From Verrucomicrobiia bacterium (GTDB taxonomy: Bacteria; Verrucomicrobiota; Verrucomicrobiia; Verrucomicrobiales; DEV007), in assembly GCA_030427505.1 (NCBI GenBank), contig JAUICH010000004.1, forward strand, positions 124,001-188,000: a DNA stretch of 64,000 nucleotides, read 5' to 3'. Below the pieces are notes generated by a model. That model did not search any database and was not told where the DNA came from. It worked only from the letters and a program-made list of their open reading frames with translations. This document shows, in pieces, positions 2,543 through 47,241 of this stretch (its first letter is position 1; every line of letters starts with the position of its first letter). The position numbers and the translations under genes are program-made.

Positions 2543-4336
2543 TTAGGTTTCGGCGGCTTCGGCATCTTCCGTCACGGCCAGCACTTCTTCCACCGTGGTT
2601 TCGCCTTCCGCCACTTTATCCCACCCGTATTCGCGCATGGTGCGGAAGCCGTCCCGCGCCGCCTGGTGGACGATCTCCTGGTGGGTGGCCCGCGCCGCGA
2701 TCAGGGACTGAAGCTGGCGGGTCAGGATGCACACCTCATAAATAGCCAGGCGGCCCCGGTAACCGGTGTGACGGCAGTTTTCACAGCCCTCCGGGGAGGC
2801 GGAGTAAAGCCCTTCCCAAGCGGTCTCGGGCACTCCGGCCTTGCGAAGATAGTCGGGCAGGTGCTCGGCGGGCACCCGGCACTGCGGACAGAGGCGCCGG
2901 ACCAGCCGCTGGGCCATGAAGGCCCGGACAGAGGCGGACACCAGGAAGGGCTCCACCCCCATGTCCACCAGACGGGTGATGCCACCAATGGCGTCATTCG
3001 TGTGCAGGGTGCTCAACACCAAGTGACCGGTCAGAGAGGCGCGGATCGCGATCTCCGCCGTCTCCAGGTCGCGAATCTCTCCCACCATGATCACGTTTGG
3101 GTCGCCACGCAGAATGCTCCGCAGCCCGCTCGCGAAGGTCAGGTTGATCTCCGGTTTCACCGCGATCTGGACCACGCCTTCCAGCTTGTTCTCCACCGGG
3201 TCCTCAATGGTCACGATACGCCGGGAGTCGGAGTTCAGCGCGGACAGGAAGCAGTACAGCGTGGTGGATTTCCCGCAGCCGGTGGGGCCCGTCACCAGGA
3301 CAATGCCGTTTGGCTTTTCCAACAGACCGTCCACCCGGCTCCGGGCATCGGGCAGCATTTCCAGGCGGTTCAGGGTAAAGCGCTCCTGCCCCAGCAGACG
3401 GAGGCTTACGCTTTCGCCCTCCACGCCGGGAATGGTGGCCACGCGCACGTCGATGGATTGGCCGTCCAGCCGCAGGTGAATGCGCCCATCCTGGGGCAGC
3501 CGCTTTTCCGCGATGTCCAGCCGGGCCATCACCTTCAGGCGCGCGATCACCGCCGCCTGCAGGCTTTTGATGTTTTCCGGCACCGGCGCGCTGCGCAGCA
3601 CGCCGTCGATCCGGTAGCGGATTCTCAGGTCGTGCTCCAGGGGCTCGATATGAATGTCCGTGGTCCGTTGGGCCAGTGCTTCCTTGATGATCTGGTTGAC
3701 GAACTTCACCACCGAGGCCTCGGCGTCGTCTTCGTCCAGAACGTTGACCTCCTCCCGCAGATCGATGGAGTCTCCGTCCATGTCGCGGCTGGCCAGCAGT
3801 TCTTCAAAGGTATCCGCCCCTACCCCATAGAAATCCTGCACAGCCTCGATCAGCCGCCGGCGGGAGGTCATAACCCACCGGATGGGGCCGTCCACGATCT
3901 TCTGCACCGCCTGGCGCTGATGGTACTGAAAGGGATCGTAACAGGCGATCTCCACCCGCCCGGCCTGCTTCTCCTCCCCGGCTCCGGGGATTGCGGCGGC
4001 ACCCTCCGCCTTCGTTTCTTCATCTTCGATCATCCGCACGGGGATGATGCGGTGCCGGATGGCGGCCTGCGCGGAACAGAGGCGCTTTAGCTCCGCTCCC
4101 GCCCCGGTGTCGGGCAGCGGGTCGTCGACCCAGTCCAGTCCCAGATCGCGGCTCAGCTCTTTCAAAAACTCGTCCTCCGGCACGTCCCCGGCGTCCAGCA
4201 GGGCATCGATGAGCGAACGGTTGTCCAGCGCCGATTCCCGGGCCAGCGAGAGGAGCCGCCCGTCATCCATCTGACACCCGGCCCGGCTCGCGGCCTGGGC
4301 GAGGAGGGTCTCGGCAATACCTGGAGAGCTGTTCAT
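2543..4336 (-). CDS. gspE: Type II secretion ATPase GspE
   Basis: A 597-residue GspE/PulE family ATPase that powers pseudopilus assembly from the cytoplasmic face. After an N-terminal T2SSE-N region (about 1-195) come the Asp box around TTDIHIEPLEHDLRIRYRIDG (225-245), Walker A GPTGCGKST (350-358), the Walker B region IMVGEIRDLETAEIA (about 416-430) and the His box LSTLHTND (441-448). A zinc site is formed by CPQC (483-486) and CENC (518-521). All catalytic motifs are intact. It is the second gene of the operon, 41 bp after the upstream secreted protein, and its end lies near gspF. Confidence 0.96.
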   Translation of the reverse strand: MNSSPGIAETLLAQAASRAGCQMDDGRLLSLARESALDNRSLIDALLDAGDVPEDEFLKELSRDLGLDWVDDPLPDTGAGAELKRLCSAQAAIRHRIIPVRMIEDEETKAEGAAAIPGAGEEKQAGRVEIACYDPFQYHQRQAVQKIVDGPIRWVMTSRRRLIEAVQDFYGVGADTFEELLASRDMDGDSIDLREEVNVLDEDDAEASVVKFVNQIIKEALAQRTTDIHIEPLEHDLRIRYRIDGVLRSAPVPENIKSLQAAVIARLKVMARLDIAEKRLPQDGRIHLRLDGQSIDVRVATIPGVEGESVSLRLLGQERFTLNRLEMLPDARSRVDGLLEKPNGIVLVTGPTGCGKSTTLYCFLSALNSDSRRIVTIEDPVENKLEGVVQIAVKPEINLTFASGLRSILRGDPNVIMVGEIRDLETAEIAIRASLTGHLVLSTLHTNDAIGGITRLVDMGVEPFLVSASVRAFMAQRLVRRLCPQCRVPAEHLPDYLRKAGVPETAWEGLYSASPEGCENCRHTGYRGRLAIYEVCILTRQLQSLIAARATHQEIVHQAARDGFRTMREYGWDKVAEGETTVEEVLAVTEDAEAAET

Positions 4337-40900: not shown

Positions 40901-41143
40901 GGCATGGTCCCTCCGTCAGTTGCTCGCGTTTCCCTCTCTCTACGACTCCTCTTTTTCCGTCTTCTGGTTTGCTCCAGTCGATCAATTGCGGCGGGGAAGG
41001 TCAAGTCTGTGTCTTGGTGGACTGAAGGCCCAAGAACGTATCGAATCAGTCGTTTTGTTGGGGGCTGTGGGGAACGAGCTTTTACCGGCTTGAGGAGCGG
41101 CAGCTGTTTTATTTAACTGGGTCGTTTTGGCGGAATTTCTTCT

Positions 41144-41238
41144 GCACGCCAAGGGCGTGCCCGTCGATAGCCCGGGGTGAAACCCCGGGAACCTGTCCGG
41201 CACAGATTTCCGCCCCAACGGGGCGGGCGTGGCGTTCG
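41144..41238 (+). repeat. Three-hairpin REP-like element, copy A1
   Basis: The 95 bp unit contains three perfect hairpins with 3-base loops: GCACGCC-aag-GGCGTGC (41144-41160), CCCGGGGT-gaa-ACCCCGGG (41171-41189) and CGCCCC-aac-GGGGCG (41211-41225), ending GCGTGGCGTTCG. It is identical to copy A2, 370 bp further on. The gap 40901-41143 before it shows nothing recognisable. Confidence 0.92.
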
Positions 41239-41325
41239 CGAAAGCTACAACGTTCTGGAGGCACGATCAGACGGGTGGTTCACTGTATCTACCATTCGAA
41301 TATCGAAACATTTCTCTGTCTGACC

Positions 41326-41434
41326 GCGCCACGCGCGCCCCTGCAGGGCGCAAACGGTGGGTGGGTTTTTTCCCAGGGTTCCCGTTGGTCACCCTGGGCT
41401 ATCGACGTAGGCCCCTTTGGGGCCTTGGTCGTGG
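41326..41434 (-). repeat. Three-hairpin REP-like element, copy B1 (inverted)
   Basis: In inverted orientation relative to A1, with the same GCGTGGCG end and a central CCCAGGGT/ACCCTGGG stem, but a longer loop in the middle hairpin (gaccaacggga). The outer stems, GCGCCCC/GGGGCGC-like and GGCCCC/GGGGCC, are kept. It is a diverged copy. Confidence 0.8.
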
Positions 41435-41513
41435 GAGCGAGCTGGGGCGTTTGGGTTGCCGCTTAGGTGGAGTCTCGTCTTCGCTTTGGTGGTACCTCGG
41501 TGGCGCTCCTTCC

Positions 41514-41608
41514 GCACGCCAAGGGCGTGCCCGTCGATAGCCCGGGGTGAAACCCCGGGAACCTGTCCGGCACAGATTTCCGCCCCAACGGGGCGGGCGT
41601 GGCGTTCG
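41514..41608 (+). repeat. Three-hairpin REP-like element, copy A2
   Basis: This unit repeats A1 exactly over 95 bp, including all three hairpins and the ACCTGTCCGGCACAGATTTC linker. The identity at 370 bp distance indicates recent copying or gene conversion. Confidence 0.92.
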
Positions 41609-41693
41609 TGGTAAGAATAGGGTTTTCCAAAAGATATAACGATGGTCTACCGTGGGGGATACTTTTCTGGATCTCCTTTCTGGAGCTGGATTA

Positions 41694-41793
41694 CGAACGC
41701 CACGCGCGCCCTTTCAGGGCGCATTTGCCCTCTATCGCTGTACCCAGGGTTTCACCCTGGGCTTTCAACGTAGGCCCCGTTGGGGCCTTGGCG
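41694..41793 (-). repeat. Three-hairpin REP-like element, copy B2 (inverted)
   Basis: The inverted unit next to the transposase gene has stems GCGCCCT-ttc-AGGGCGC (41706-41722), CCCAGGGT-ttc-ACCCTGGG (41743-41761) and GGCCCC-gtt-GGGGCC (41773-41787). Compared with A1 on the same strand sense, base-paired positions differ in a compensating way. The boundary CGAACGCCACGC is the reverse complement of the A-copy end. Confidence 0.88.
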
Positions 41794-41911
41794 CGGCGCG
41801 GGCATTTTATCCAAATTGGTAACATTTCCCTGCTTCTCTTGCTTAACCGGCCTTTCCTACTTCGCATGTTTTGCATGCGTCGCTTTATCCGCTAGGTTTC
41901 AATCTTTCCCG

Positions 41912-42361
41912 ATGCCTCAATCTCTTGCCAATCTCCTCGTCCACCTGGTCTTCAGCACTAAAGAACGGGGCGCGTGGCTGAAGGATGAATGGCGGCAGGA
42001 CCTTCATGCTTACATTGGTGGGATACTCAAGCGGCGCGGCTCCAGCCTGCTCGCCGCGAACTCAGTGGACGATCATATTCACCTCCTCTTTCCCCTGCCC
42101 AGGACCGTCACCATGGCGGATCTCGTCAAGGAGATCAAAACCGGTTCATCAGTCTGGATTCACGAAAACACCTCATTCAAGCACTTCCAGTGGCAGGCCG
42201 GATATGGCGCGTTCTCGCTCAGTTCGTCTCACAAAGATGCCGTCATGGATTACATCGCAAAACAGAGAGAACATCACCAAAAGGTCTCTTTTCAGGACGA
42301 GTTTCGCCGGCTCCTGAAGAAGAACGATATCCCTTTCGATGAGCGCTACGTGTGGGACTAA
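41912..42361 (+). CDS. REP-associated tyrosine transposase (RAYT, IS200-like Y1 HUH transposase)
   Basis: A 149-residue Y1 transposase of the IS200/TnpA_REP type. It shows the HUH motif DDHIHLLF (His55, His57), the catalytic Tyr114 in VMDYIAKQREHHQKVSF, the family stretch GYGAFSLSSS and the C-terminal FRRLLKKNDIPFDERYVWD. Such enzymes cut and join single-stranded DNA at hairpins; domesticated RAYTs act on REP sequences. The frame could be opened at 41780, but the extra 44 residues lie in the repeat B2 flank, so MPQSLANLLVHLVFSTKERG is the natural start. The four hairpin units directly upstream are its probable substrate. All catalytic residues are intact, so the gene may be active. Confidence 0.9.
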   Translation: MPQSLANLLVHLVFSTKERGAWLKDEWRQDLHAYIGGILKRRGSSLLAANSVDDHIHLLFPLPRTVTMADLVKEIKTGSSVWIHENTSFKHFQWQAGYGAFSLSSSHKDAVMDYIAKQREHHQKVSFQDEFRRLLKKNDIPFDERYVWD

Positions 42362-42415: not shown

Positions 42416-43876
42416 TCACACAAACACCTCCCTCACCACCTCTCCTCCGAACACGGTGGGGATTTCGTCGCGGTTGTTGTGGCTGTAGATGACTTTGTAT
42501 TGGTCGAGGCCAAGGGCGTTGAGGATGGTGGCGTGGAGGTCGGCGGGTGAGAGGGGGCGCTCGACGGGGACGAAGCCGAGGTCGTCGGTGGCGCCGATGA
42601 CTTGACCGCCTTTGACGCCGCCGCCGGCCATCCAGAGGGTGTAGCCGGCGGGCGAGTGGTCGCGGCCGCGCTTTTCGCCCTTGGCGCTGCCTTCGGTGGT
42701 GGGGGTGCGGCCGAACTCGCCGCCCCAGACGACGAGGGTGTCTTCGAGGAGGCCGCGTTGCTTAAGATCAGTGAGCAGGCCGGCGATGGGCCGGTCGACG
42801 GCCTGGGCTTGCTTGCGGTGGTTGCTTTCCAGGCTGCCGTGGGCGTCCCAGCCGCCGTTGCGGAGCTGGATGCAGCGAACGCCTTTCTCGACGAGGCGGC
42901 GGGCGATGAGGCACTGACTTCCATACTCAGCCGTGGCTTTGTCGTCCAGGCCGTAGAGACGGCGAATGTGCTCGGGCTCGGTGCCGAGGTCGAAGGTTTC
43001 GGGCGCGGAAGCCTGCATGCGGAAGCCGAGTTCGTAGGAGGCGATGCGGGCTTCCAGCTCGGTATCGATGCCCTGGCTGGCGAGGTGTTTCTGGTTCATC
43101 CAGTCGATGAACTTCAGTTGCTCGCGGCGGTTGGTATCGGTGTAACCGGCGGGCATTTTGGTGAAGGGCACACCGTTTTTCCCATCGACCACGGTGCCCT
43201 GGTATTTCGAGGGCAGGAAGCCGGGCCCCCAGCCGGAGCGCTGGGGCGCGGGGCCGGTGGTGTTTGACAGCATGACGACGAAGCCGGGCAGGTCGCCGCT
43301 CTCGCTGCCGAGGCCGTAGGTGACCCAGGCGCCCATACTGGGGCGGTCGCCCAGGGCGGTGCCGGTCAGCGCCACGCACTCGCCCGGGCCGTGCACGGGG
43401 ATGCGGTGATTCATGGAGCGGATGACGCAGAGGTCATCCACGAGCTGCGCGGTTTCGGGAAAAAGCTCGGACACGGCGATGCCGCTCTGCCCGTACTGCT
43501 TAAAGGAAAAGGGCGAGGCCATGAGGGGCGAGCTGACGCCGGAGCGCGGAATCTTCGGCACGTTAACGGCGATACTCTCCGGAACGGGCTGACCTTCCAG
43601 CTTTTGCAGGAGCGGCTTAGGGTCAAAGGTATCCGTCTGGCCGGGGCCGCCGCTCATGAAGAGGAAGATGACGCTCTTGGCCCGGGGCGGCAGGTGCGGC
43701 CCCACGAGGTGGGGGCGGGTGTGGTCCCCTTCCCGGCTGGAGGCGTAGAGTCCTTCCTGCGCGAGGAGGGAGGCCAGGGCGATGGAGCCGAACCCCAGCG
43801 TGCTGCTTTCCAGCATGGCGCGGCGGGTGAAGAGCCGGGGGCTGTGATGATGGTGAAAAGGCTGCGGCTCGTTCAT
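42416..43876 (-). CDS. DUF1501 family protein, Tat-exported
   Basis: The 486-residue protein has a Tat-like leader ([23 protein letters not shown]) and the DUF1501 series: [36 protein letters not shown]-type region [60 protein letters not shown] and [21 protein letters not shown]. This is the sulfatase-like planctomycete/verrucomicrobial type. Its ATG overlaps the upstream gene's stop by 4 bp (ATGA), the classic PSD1-DUF1501 couple. The second DUF1501 in this window, at 13266, belongs to the different DUF1800-linked branch. Confidence 0.92.
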
Positions 43877-46800
43877 GGGATGTAGAGGAACTCGTTAAGA
43901 TTGATCAGCGCGTGGCAGAACTGCAAGAGCGCGGTCGCGGAATCGGCTTCGGTGGTGGCGCCGGACTGAAGCCAGGCGATGGCTTGTTCGCGTTCGTCTT
44001 TGTCCGGCTGACGGCCCAGGGTGGTGAGGAAGGCGGTCTCCACCTGGCGGGCGGGATCGTTGCCAGCGGTCTGGCTTACTTCCTTGGCCAGGACTTCGGC
44101 GCGGTGCATCATGAAGCCGCTGTTCAGCAGGTAGAGCGGCTGGAGGGCCACGGTGGAAACGCCGCGCTGGGGACAGCTGGAGATGAGCTCCGGCGCGTCG
44201 AACATTTCCATGACGGTGGGCATGTCGCTGCGGCGCTGGTAGAGATAGAGGGTGCGGCGCAGGGCTTTCTCGTCGCGCTCGGGCGGGACGCTGGGGCCGC
44301 CGATGGTGTCGTCCAGCTCGCCGGTGGCGACGAGCACGGCGTCGCGAATGGCCTCGGCCTCCAGGCGGCGGCGCGGCCAGTTCCAGAGCAGGGTGTTTTC
44401 GGGATCGATGGCGGCGTTTGCCTCGCTGTGCAGGCGCTGCTGGCGGTAGGTGGCGGAGAGGACGATCTGGCGGTGGAGGTGTTTCGTGCTCCAGCCGTTT
44501 TCCATGAGTTCAGAAGCTAACCAGTCGAGCAAGCCGGGGTGTGTGGGCGGCGAGCCCAGGGTGCCGAAATCGCTGGGCGTGGTGACGATGCCCTGGCCGA
44601 AGTGCCACTGCCAGAGGCGGTTCGCCCAGACGCGGGCGGTCAGGGGATTTTCCCGGCTGGTCAGCCACTGGGCGAACTCCACGCGGCTGACGCCGTCCGG
44701 CTTCACGGGCGTGGGGCCCAGCACTTCCGGCCACCCGCCGGTGACCTCCGGCCCGGGCCGGCTGACATCGCCGCGGACCAGGATGTGGCCGCGGGTGTCT
44801 TTCAGGCCCTGGGCGTCCCACACGATGGGGTCGCGATTCACCACGGGCAGGCGTTCGATGCCGGGGTCGCTCTGGCCGGGCGCGTGGAAGCCCCAGGTGT
44901 GCGGCTGAGTGGTGTGCTCGAAGCGCTTACTTTTAACGAGCTTGTTCGCCTCGCTCATGTAGAACTTGTAGGCGCCGGCTTCCATCCAGTTTTCGAGGTC
45001 GGTGGGGTTCGGCGTTCCGGCATCGCGCAGGGAGAGGTTGCCGAGCTGGCCGTTCACGAAGAATGCCTGGAGGCGGTAGTAGTCGCGCTGGCTGATGGGG
45101 TCGAACTTGTGGTTGTGGCACTGGGCGCACTCCATGGTCAGGCCCAGGATGGCGCTGCCGGTGGCATTGGTCATGTCCACCAGCACGTCATTGCGCTGCG
45201 CGGCCTTGTCCATGTTGTTGCCGCTGATGCGGGCGGCGGCCAGGAAGCCGGTGGCGATGAGGTTTTCGTCGGCGTAGGGTTGCAACTCGTCCCCGGCGAG
45301 CTGCTCGGTTAGAAAGCGGTCGTAGGGTTTGTCGGCATTGAAGGCGGCGATGACGTAGTCGCGATACCGCCAGGCGTAGGGCCGGGGGATGTCGTGCTGA
45401 TAGCCCTGGCTTTCGGCCCAGCGGGCCAGGTCCAGCCAGTAGCGGCCCCAGCGCTCGCCGTAGTGTGGGGAGTCGAGCAGTTCCTCCACCAGGGCGGCGA
45501 AGGCAGCCTCGGGATCTTTCGCGGAGGCGGTGAGGAAAGCGTCTATCTGCTTAGGCGTCGGTGGCAGGCCAATGAGATCCAGGTAAAGGCGGCGCACCAG
45601 GACCCGGGGCGGCGCCTCGGCGGCGGGGGTCACGCCTTCCGCCTCCTGCCGGGCGCGGATGAAGGCATCCACCGGCGTGCGGACCCAGCCGGCCCGTTTC
45701 AATTTCGGAAGGGCGGGGCGTTCGATGCGCTGGAAGGCCCAGTGATCCGTCTGAATGCGCGGGGTGGGCAGCAGCGTTTCGTCCCAGGTCATGCCCTGCT
45801 CGATCCACGCCGCCAGGAGGCCGACTTCCTTTTCAGAGAGCGGGTCTCCCCCACCCTCTTCCGGCGGCATGCGGTCCTGGGGATTCGCTTCGGTGATCTT
45901 TTCCAGGAGGCGGCTTGACCGGGCCTTGCCGGGTTCCGCCAGCGGATCGCCCGTGCTGTAGCCCAGGATCTCGTTGCGCACGTCCAGCCGGTAGCCGGAG
46001 TCCGGTTTCTCGCCGGAGTGACATTTGAAGCAGCGCTCTTTCAGCAGCGGATACACATCGTGAGAAAAGTTCACCGCGCCCGCCCACGGCTCGCCCGGCA
46101 GCGGCTGAGGCACTTCGGTCAGGCTGGGCGCGCTGACGGCTTTCATGACGTCTTCCCAAGTGCGGCTCAGCACCAGGTCATCGATCCAGATGCGGTCCTC
46201 GCGCTCCGTCTTTCGCCCGGTGGAAAAGCCGACCCAGCGCACGAAGTTCACGCTCTGCTGATCGCGGATAGACGCGGCGGGCTGGCCGAGGTCTTCCGGT
46301 GTGGGGTTCACCCAGAGGTCGAAGCGGTCGAAGTCCGCGCGCTCCGTGGGCTCGGATTTCGAAAGGCGTCCGACCAGGACGTAGTCGCGCCCGCGCTCCA
46401 GTTCCACGGCACTGAAAGCCGTGTGCGCCGCGCCGATGCGGACCATGAACACTGCCTTCCCCTTCTTCGGCCCGGATTCCGCGACGTGGACCCCCAGGTT
46501 CGGCACGTTCTCCGAATGCGTCGCCGTGTCCGTCCCCTCCAGCCGGTCCAGCCACAGCACAAAAAACTCGCTGTCATCCTCCGGTGGGTCATAGCGGAGA
46601 GTGAAGCGCACAAACAGTTCGCTCCCCCGGAACGGCGCCGCCAACTGCCGCCGCAACGCATTGTTCCGGTCCCCCGTCCCCCGGATGAGAACGCCCGGCT
46701 GGTCTTTATCGCCACCGCCCTCCCCCTCCGCCATCGTCCCCGGCAGGATCGCGGAAAGCTTCCAGCCCCTCTCAAACCCGATGCCCCGGACGGGTTCGGT

Positions 46801-46956
46801 CAAGTCAATCCCCGTGGCCGCAAAGCCGTCCTCGGCGATGCGGGATTCGTCGGCGAGGGCCGTTGGAGTGGTCGCAAAGGTCCCAGCCATCGCGAGGGCG
46901 ATGGCGGCATAAACTGGGGTGAAAAAAATTGAAGCGAAGCGCGTGAAACGACTCAT
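43873..46956 (-). CDS. DUF1549/DUF1553 planctomycete cytochrome C (PSD1) protein
   Basis: About 1027 residues with a signal peptide ([25 protein letters not shown]). A LamG/lectin-like first part of roughly 230 residues precedes the PSC1 cytochrome motif [26 protein letters not shown], then DUF1549 ([65 protein letters not shown]) and DUF1553 ([69 protein letters not shown]). One CxxCH is seen. The protein is periplasmic and probably works with the DUF1501 partner in degrading sulfated or complex organic matter. The ATG at 46956 is preferred to a TTG at 46986. Confidence 0.92.
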
Positions 46957-47241
46957 GACAGCGGGGTTTCCTCTGTATTTTGCCAAGGACCTCGAAATCT
47001 AACGAAAAAAGGGAAAGTTTTTCGAGCAGGGGAGGTGGGCGTGGACCAAGTGCCGGGGAAGAACTGGATGTAAAGCGGGCATGAATCGGAAATTACGAAT
47101 TGACGCTAAGCAGTTCACGTCGAATTCTGAGACCGATCTTGACCAAGCTCCTGCCTAGAACCCGAATTAGCCGACCAGCCTTACATGCTAGAGGCAAGAT
47201 TTCACTGATTTGTTAATTGGTTCGGAAACACCCCAATACAC

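Follow-up and report, generated by a model that had tools for sequence, protein, structure and literature searches.

Palindromic repeats and Y1 HUH transposases are paired in several described systems. In REP/BIME/REPIN systems, dispersed intergenic palindromes, arranged in inverted pairs or arrays, are accompanied by an adjacent Y1 HUH enzyme, the RAYT; a REP has one hairpin after a GTAG, and the enzyme is of class 2 with the motif Y---NP. Which dinucleotide is cleaved depends on the last two bases of the GTAG, with CT corresponding to AG (PMC8266576). In the TIRtrons, the Y1 gene (TIRYT) lies between inverted repeats, some of which are partly self-complementary and genome-repeated (Di Nocera et al. 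2013, PMC3733652); 20 of 26 examples belong to subclass 2.1 and carry HTH domains, and most have GGGGWSAS in the repeats (PMC6006769). IS200/IS605 elements such as IS608 and ISDra2 carry single left and right subterminal hairpins with 5' guide bases and often occur in several near-identical copies. TnpA-Y1 subclass 1.2, finally, has the published motifs DH[IV]H, WQ and YIKNQKEHH and a median length of 148 aa; it was reported mainly from Cyanobacteria and Bacteroidetes, with 'no' REP and generally without the typical terminal structures of IS200 (Quentin et al. 2018, PMC6006769).

The locus described here belongs to a Verrucomicrobiia bacterium (genome 6.4 Mb, 56 contigs) and lies in a window of 64 kb, the whole stretch of DNA that was analysed (G000:C45:124001-188000). 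It shares with REP systems the dispersed intergenic palindromes, the inverted pairs and arrays, the adjacent Y1 HUH enzyme and an AG at the foot of a stem, but has units of three hairpins at fixed spacing and an enzyme of the IS200 branch. The three-hairpin geometry has not been described for TIRtrons, with which the locus has a Y1 gene and inverted, genome-repeated sequences in common. The enzyme is sequence-related to the TnpA proteins of IS608 and ISDra2, whose single hairpins contrast with the inverted triple hairpins found here. The resemblance to subclass 1.2 comprises DH[IV]H, WQ, Y---Q--HH, a length of about 148 aa, low copy number and low identity between copies; in contrast to the published account, most members examined here have three-hairpin inverted flanks, and they come from Verrucomicrobiota, Planctomycetota, Acidobacteriota, Chloroflexi and others. 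In several phyla, subclass-1.2 genes are often flanked by inverted copies of a common three-hairpin architecture.

Repeat array and transposase gene of the window

Upstream of the Y1 transposase gene, four units of about 95-100 nt each alternate in orientation (A1+, B1-, A2+, B2-) at 41139-41788. Unit A1 (41139-41238, plus strand) was detected by a hairpin scan, as a 100-nt repeat with A2, and by a covariance model, R1, with 60.8 bits. It consists of hairpin H1 (41144-41160; stem gcacgcc/ggcgtgc, loop AAG), a spacer ending in GATAG, H2 (41171-41189; stem cccggggt/accccggg, loop GAA), H3 (41210-41226; stem ccgcccc/ggggcgg, loop AAC) and the tail GCGTGGCGTTCG (41227-41238). Unit A2 (41509-41608, plus strand; hairpin scan, repeat with A1, 60.8 bits) has H1 at 41514-41530, H2 at 41541-41559, H3 at 41580-41596 and a tail up to 41608. 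The two B units are inverted and related to the A units, as detected by inverted repeats. B1 (41327-41425, minus strand, on which it reads H1-H2-H3; 49.8 bits) comprises a slightly imperfect H3 (41335-41351), an H2 with an 8-bp stem and an 11-nt loop (41372-41398) and H1 (41409-41425). B2 (41694-41788, minus strand; also found by the hairpin scan, 65.9 bits) comprises H3 (41706-41722), H2 (41743-41761) and H1 (41772-41788) and has the tail common to the A units. A1 and A2 are identical across the 95-nt unit and show 99% identity over 100 nt. A1, A2 and B2 have exclusively perfect hairpins with 3-nt loops, B1 being the only deviating unit.

This array stands out from the remainder of the window. 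Perfect hairpins with a stem of at least 7 bp and a loop of 3-5 nt number 22 in the whole 64 kb, and ten of them lie within 41144-41788; these ten are all the perfect hairpins of the window with such a stem and a 3-nt loop. With R1, the rest of the window does not exceed 13 bits, against 49.8-65.9 bits for the four units. The flanks of A1 and A2 and the A-B spacers showed no alignment to each other. Origin of the array by plain tandem duplication of a 370-bp module was therefore rejected. Elsewhere in the genome, the A type is found at six more places, where homology is limited to H1-H2-H3 and about 13 nt (GCGTGGCG). As BLAST with A1 yielded only 8 full-length matches, a structure-based model was used. 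Published copies of the unit sequence were not found in a literature search.

The ORF at 41912-42361 (plus strand) is intact and encodes a Y1 HUH transposase of 149 aa, TnpA (Pfam Y1_Tnp, PF01797, E 1.8e-24), with its ATG about 124 nt from the end of B2. Its motifs are DDHIH with H55 and H57 (42074-42082), WQ (W94-Q95, 42191-42196) and YIAKQREHH with Y114 (42251-42253); H55, H57, W94, Q95, Y114, Q118 and H122 are invariant in 25 aligned proteins, with the consensus YIxNQxEHH. The protein passes the NCBIfam IS200/IS605 transposase model, which does not separate subclass 1.1 from 1.2, with 61.9 bits against a cut-off of 55, but reaches only 21.9 of the 80 bits required by the NCBIfam RAYT model (REP_Tyr_transpos). 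The catalytic motif is Y---Q--HH, and the Y---NP of class 2 is absent. Judged by motif and length (DH[IV]H, WQ, Y---Q--HH, about 148 aa), the window enzyme is assigned to TnpA-Y1 subclass 1.2. The family profile matches solved IS200-type TnpA structures, including those of IS608 and ISDra2. Copy number is low, with 1-8 matches per genome among the strong-hit genomes; the genome of the window holds two full-length genes which are 65% identical to each other, and near-identical copies are absent. Directly before the start and after the stop of the window gene there is no unit, whereas most relatives have a downstream unit.

The first-pass annotation of this DNA had thus correctly recognised the four alternating units, the identity of the two A copies, an end of the array about 120 bp before the gene and an intact Y1 HUH transposase with His55/His57 and Tyr114, and a low-copy, possibly domesticated gene, in line with its suggestion of possible domestication, is supported. 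Its description of three perfect or near-perfect hairpins with 3-base loops per unit applies to A1, A2 and B2, the 11-nt H2 loop of B1 being at variance with it. The designation of the enzyme as a RAYT was rejected, given the NCBIfam score and a Y---Q--HH in place of Y---NP (PMC6006769).

Two side observations concern the surroundings and distant relatives of the gene. At 42416-46986 (minus strand), a DUF1501 gene adjoins a PSCyt1-PSCyt2-PSD1 gene, a pairing associated with the Planctomycetes-Verrucomicrobia group. A phage record from human faecal samples that carries no annotation (MT835494.1) contains a distant transposase homologue (27.5%) at 41880-42272.

Three-hairpin units in relatives and across genomes

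Of 57 related genomes, 36 encode a homologue of the transposase. A search across GTDB genomes revealed at least 588 homologues, 80 of which were kept, from Verrucomicrobiota, Planctomycetota, Chloroflexi, Acidobacteriota, Armatimonadota and others. In a sample of 30 homologue loci with both flanks, the 200-nt flanks on either side of the gene match in inverted orientation at 20 loci, compared to 33 of 600 random placements. A strict three-hairpin descriptor applied to 105 homologues found a correctly oriented unit upstream of 39 (37%) and an inverted one downstream of 41 (39%); the wrong orientation was seen in 11% upstream and 10% downstream, and no hits were obtained in 525 shuffles or at 283 positions more than 900 nt away. 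In the canonical layout, the gene is preceded by a unit(+) and followed by a unit(-), both with H3 nearest to the gene; the median distance from the end of H3 to the start codon is 20 nt, and the mirror image begins at a median of 19 nt past the gene. The unit itself has the architecture H1, 12 or 13 nt ending in AG, H2, about 21-26 nt, H3. Among 54 standardised units, the gap between the H1 core and H2 is 12 nt in 40 and 13 nt in 13 (together 53 of 54), and the gap between H2 and H3 is mostly 21-26 nt. An AG immediately precedes the H2 stem in 40 of 40 aligned units, and only this AG is invariant there.

The covariance model R1 had 40 training units, of which two came from the window. At 56 loci without a training unit, it found a unit in the correct orientation next to the gene in 42 and units on both sides in 26 of 54. 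Across 150 matches, each of the 18 base pairs changes on both sides (428 cells, compared to 92 expected from shuffles). With the loop-closing pair of H3 left out, few cells hold a G-U pair (27 of about 2445), in an alignment fitted to a model that had been trained on Watson-Crick stems. In Bacteroidota, a homologue on a Persicobacter plasmid (L224) has H1-GACACTTATTAG-H2-H3 upstream and the mirror image downstream, with unrelated stem sequence. A subclass-1.2-like gene on a Bernardetia plasmid (L223) has inverted AT-rich flanks with AGCTGC-type hairpins (2386-2461 and 2992-3064); here a related enzyme is accompanied by another type of repeat.

The occurrence of gene and units was compared in 286 genomes of the class, with a strong match (E<=1e-25) defining presence of the gene and E<=0.001 presence of units; unit counts per genome came from the best 16 candidates, and only presence was used. 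Units were present in 89 of 94 genomes with the gene and in 26 of 192 without it. Kinship was handled by collapsing to genus alone, which gave units in 58 of 61 genera with the gene against 15 of 77 without. Twelve genomes with weak gene matches only (E 1e-10 to 1e-20) presumably carry other IS200-type genes, and units were found in one of them. In some genomes, among them G276, G163 and G212, the best 16 candidates were all units, and no subclass-1.2 gene was detected. Gene loss, genome incompleteness or another mobiliser are possible causes of units without the gene; loss of the REPtron has been reported in many E. coli strains (PMC3733652).

In the genome of the window, a single-genome search in which 150 candidates were scored revealed at least 135 units at 69 loci. 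Among close neighbour pairs, 45 of 66 are convergent, as are 27 of 30 two-unit loci. Of 30 units tested, 6 fall on an ORF of at least 200 aa, as compared to 77% of control positions. The units are dispersed, intergenic and palindromic and lie in inverted pairs or arrays, as in REP/BIME elements, and units without a gene far outnumber the genes. The layout, the further copies in the genome and the association with the transposase hence agree with what had been proposed at first pass for the array. Larger arrays comprise nine called units at L031 (C52:8874-10470) and eight at L039 (C32:457-2739), the latter surrounding the second subclass-1.2 gene.

About 12 of 33 examined pairs in this genome lie inside an unrelated MITE of about 470 bp, which has TIRs of about 30 bp (GAATGGCACTCGGATAAGCG...), apparent target duplications of 8-10 bp and a convergent three-hairpin pair inside, and which is present in about a dozen copies (among them L167, 1256-1733; L172, 1260-1733; L183, 1303-1776; L168; and the C45:239243 region outside the window). 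Because these pairs sit inside a MITE with TIRs and apparent target duplications, this family of units was spread by another transposase, and part of the copy number in this genome is due to hitch-hiking. Cleaner evidence is provided by the complete genome G223, in which a single subclass-1.2 gene is flanked by units and the 29 units in all are mostly dispersed convergent pairs of about 195 nt with constant spacing. In G223 and in a second genome, G133, the dispersed copies reach about 10-75 nt outside H1, their ends being approximately mapped. As the pairs of the two genomes extend beyond H1 by differing lengths, their alignment did not define a universal terminus or cleavage site.

Overlap with the Rfam family Acido-Lenti-1

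At gathering level, Rfam gave no match in the window. A permissive scan, however, placed sub-threshold matches to Acido-Lenti-1 (RF01687) on the minus strand over H2-H1 of A1 (41145-41189; 26.6 bits of 37, E 0.0012) and of A2 (41515-41559). Rfam gave 23 matches at gathering level across 40 homologue loci. All were to RF01687, 21 of them on called units and 2 on array hairpins, and at five loci (L132, L107, L120, L135 and L092) these matches flank the gene as mirror images. RF01687 was found at E<=0.001 in 103 of the 286 class genomes, with 69 over the cut-off; 101 of these 103 genomes also have R1 units. It is present in 83 of 94 gene-bearing genomes, in 20 of 192 others and in none of 14 control genomes.

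The two hairpins of the Rfam consensus and the CUA between them correspond to H2, the reverse complement of TAG, and H1 of the unit on the opposite strand. This suggests that RF01687 represents the H2-H1 part of the three-hairpin unit, as read from the other strand. Acido-Lenti-1 differs in that it was described as an sRNA with no known function and in that its model lacks H3. In the original study, it was judged 'probably' RNA and a cis-regulatory role improbable (Weinberg et al. 2010, PMC2864571), and a 2026 paper still regards its function as little known (PMC13298647). Copies were noted near protease genes in Tannerella forsythia, for which gene regulation was proposed (PMC13298647), and several in Vibrio anguillarum (PMC13298647, PMC10059132). 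A published link of Acido-Lenti-1 to a transposase was not found in the accessible literature. Three hairpins per unit, as the first-pass annotation had it, are thus confirmed, but the unit is not restricted to this genome or to Verrucomicrobiota: it recurs with this transposase subclass across phyla, and two of its three hairpins were already in Rfam.

Units as putative sites of the transposase

The units have a fixed geometry, are placed as mirror images around the gene, show compensatory changes in every stem, are dispersed in genomes and depend strongly on the presence of the gene. We consider it likely that the adjacent subclass-1.2 Y1 transposase recognises and processes them and that the gene-less pairs, with a spacer between unit(+) and unit(-), and the arrays are its dispersed, REPIN/BIME-like products; cleavage and mobilisation of the units by this enzyme are inferred. 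It is unlikely that the units are instead transcribed RNA elements (the Acido-Lenti-1 sRNA, terminators or mRNA stabilisers) which regulate the transposase or its neighbours, the DNA arrangement being secondary. The listing of RF01687 as an sRNA, the original 'probably' RNA rating, the covariation of the stems and the intergenic position would agree with such a role; however, the units are mirrored on both sides of the gene and form convergent pairs, and therefore one strand reads them in opposite orientations. Moreover, H3 lies outside the Rfam model, and G-U pairs are rare compared to two-sided changes, with the training of R1 on Watson-Crick stems to be kept in mind. That the palindromes are passive passengers of other elements, such as DDE-type MITEs or tandem duplications, and merely co-occur with the transposase in large genomes appears highly improbable, even though the largest family of the window's own genome rides in the MITE and units also occur in some genomes in which the gene was not detected. 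The close, orientation-specific placement beside the gene, which is seen in unrelated genomes and phyla, the match of locus-specific stem sequences between the two flanks and the skewed distribution of units between genomes with and without the gene all speak against it.

Two further explanations would assign the locus to a known class. We regard it as very unlikely that the hairpins are the subterminal ends of an ordinary mobile IS200 insertion sequence of the subclass-1.1 type: the score over the NCBIfam cut-off, the solved relatives and the occurrence of unit-gene-unit elements fit, whereas the subclass-1.2 motif and length (PMC6006769), the divergence of the two full-length genes, the inverted three-hairpin ends and the excess of gene-less units do not. 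Neither near-identical multiple copies nor a Y---Q without HH nor single subterminal hairpins, as in subclass 1.1, were found. A canonical RAYT/REP system with a class 2 TnpA-REP is hardly tenable, as the RAYT score, the catalytic motif and the number of hairpins per unit weigh against the BIME-like alternation, the AG before the H2 stem and the WQ motif, which also occurs in several REP-associated subclasses (PMC6006769). Single-hairpin REPs with a GT[AG]G foot were not seen beside the gene.

If the units are sites of the transposase, the hairpins would fold when their strand becomes single-stranded, as at a replication fork, and would be bound by the enzyme. Since AG is invariant before H2, a REP-like dinucleotide selection is suggested: the AG may act as a guide like the last two bases of the GTAG and select the cleavage site, for which CT is predicted. 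Tyr114 would then cut and rejoin single-stranded DNA and thereby copy or move units, pairs and sometimes the gene. The window gene stands beside an expanded array and would have lost the close flanking pair. More tentatively, and with a chance that we put somewhat short of even, subclass 1.2 could form a distinct partnership of Y1 transposase and repeat, apart from IS200 and RAYT, in which the enzymes recognise three hairpins about one and two helical turns apart, perhaps with a multi-subunit complex per unit, and Acido-Lenti-1 would be the enzyme's DNA site, not an RNA, in every annotated phylum.

Overall, the work presented here defines a candidate substrate for a transposase subclass without an assigned DNA target and suggests that REP-like systems are not confined to the RAYT branch but extend to the IS200 branch. 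It also puts forward a concrete explanation of an Rfam 'RNA' of little-known function. If copies of Acido-Lenti-1 are ends of mobile elements, regulatory readings of those near protease genes (PMC13298647) would need revision.
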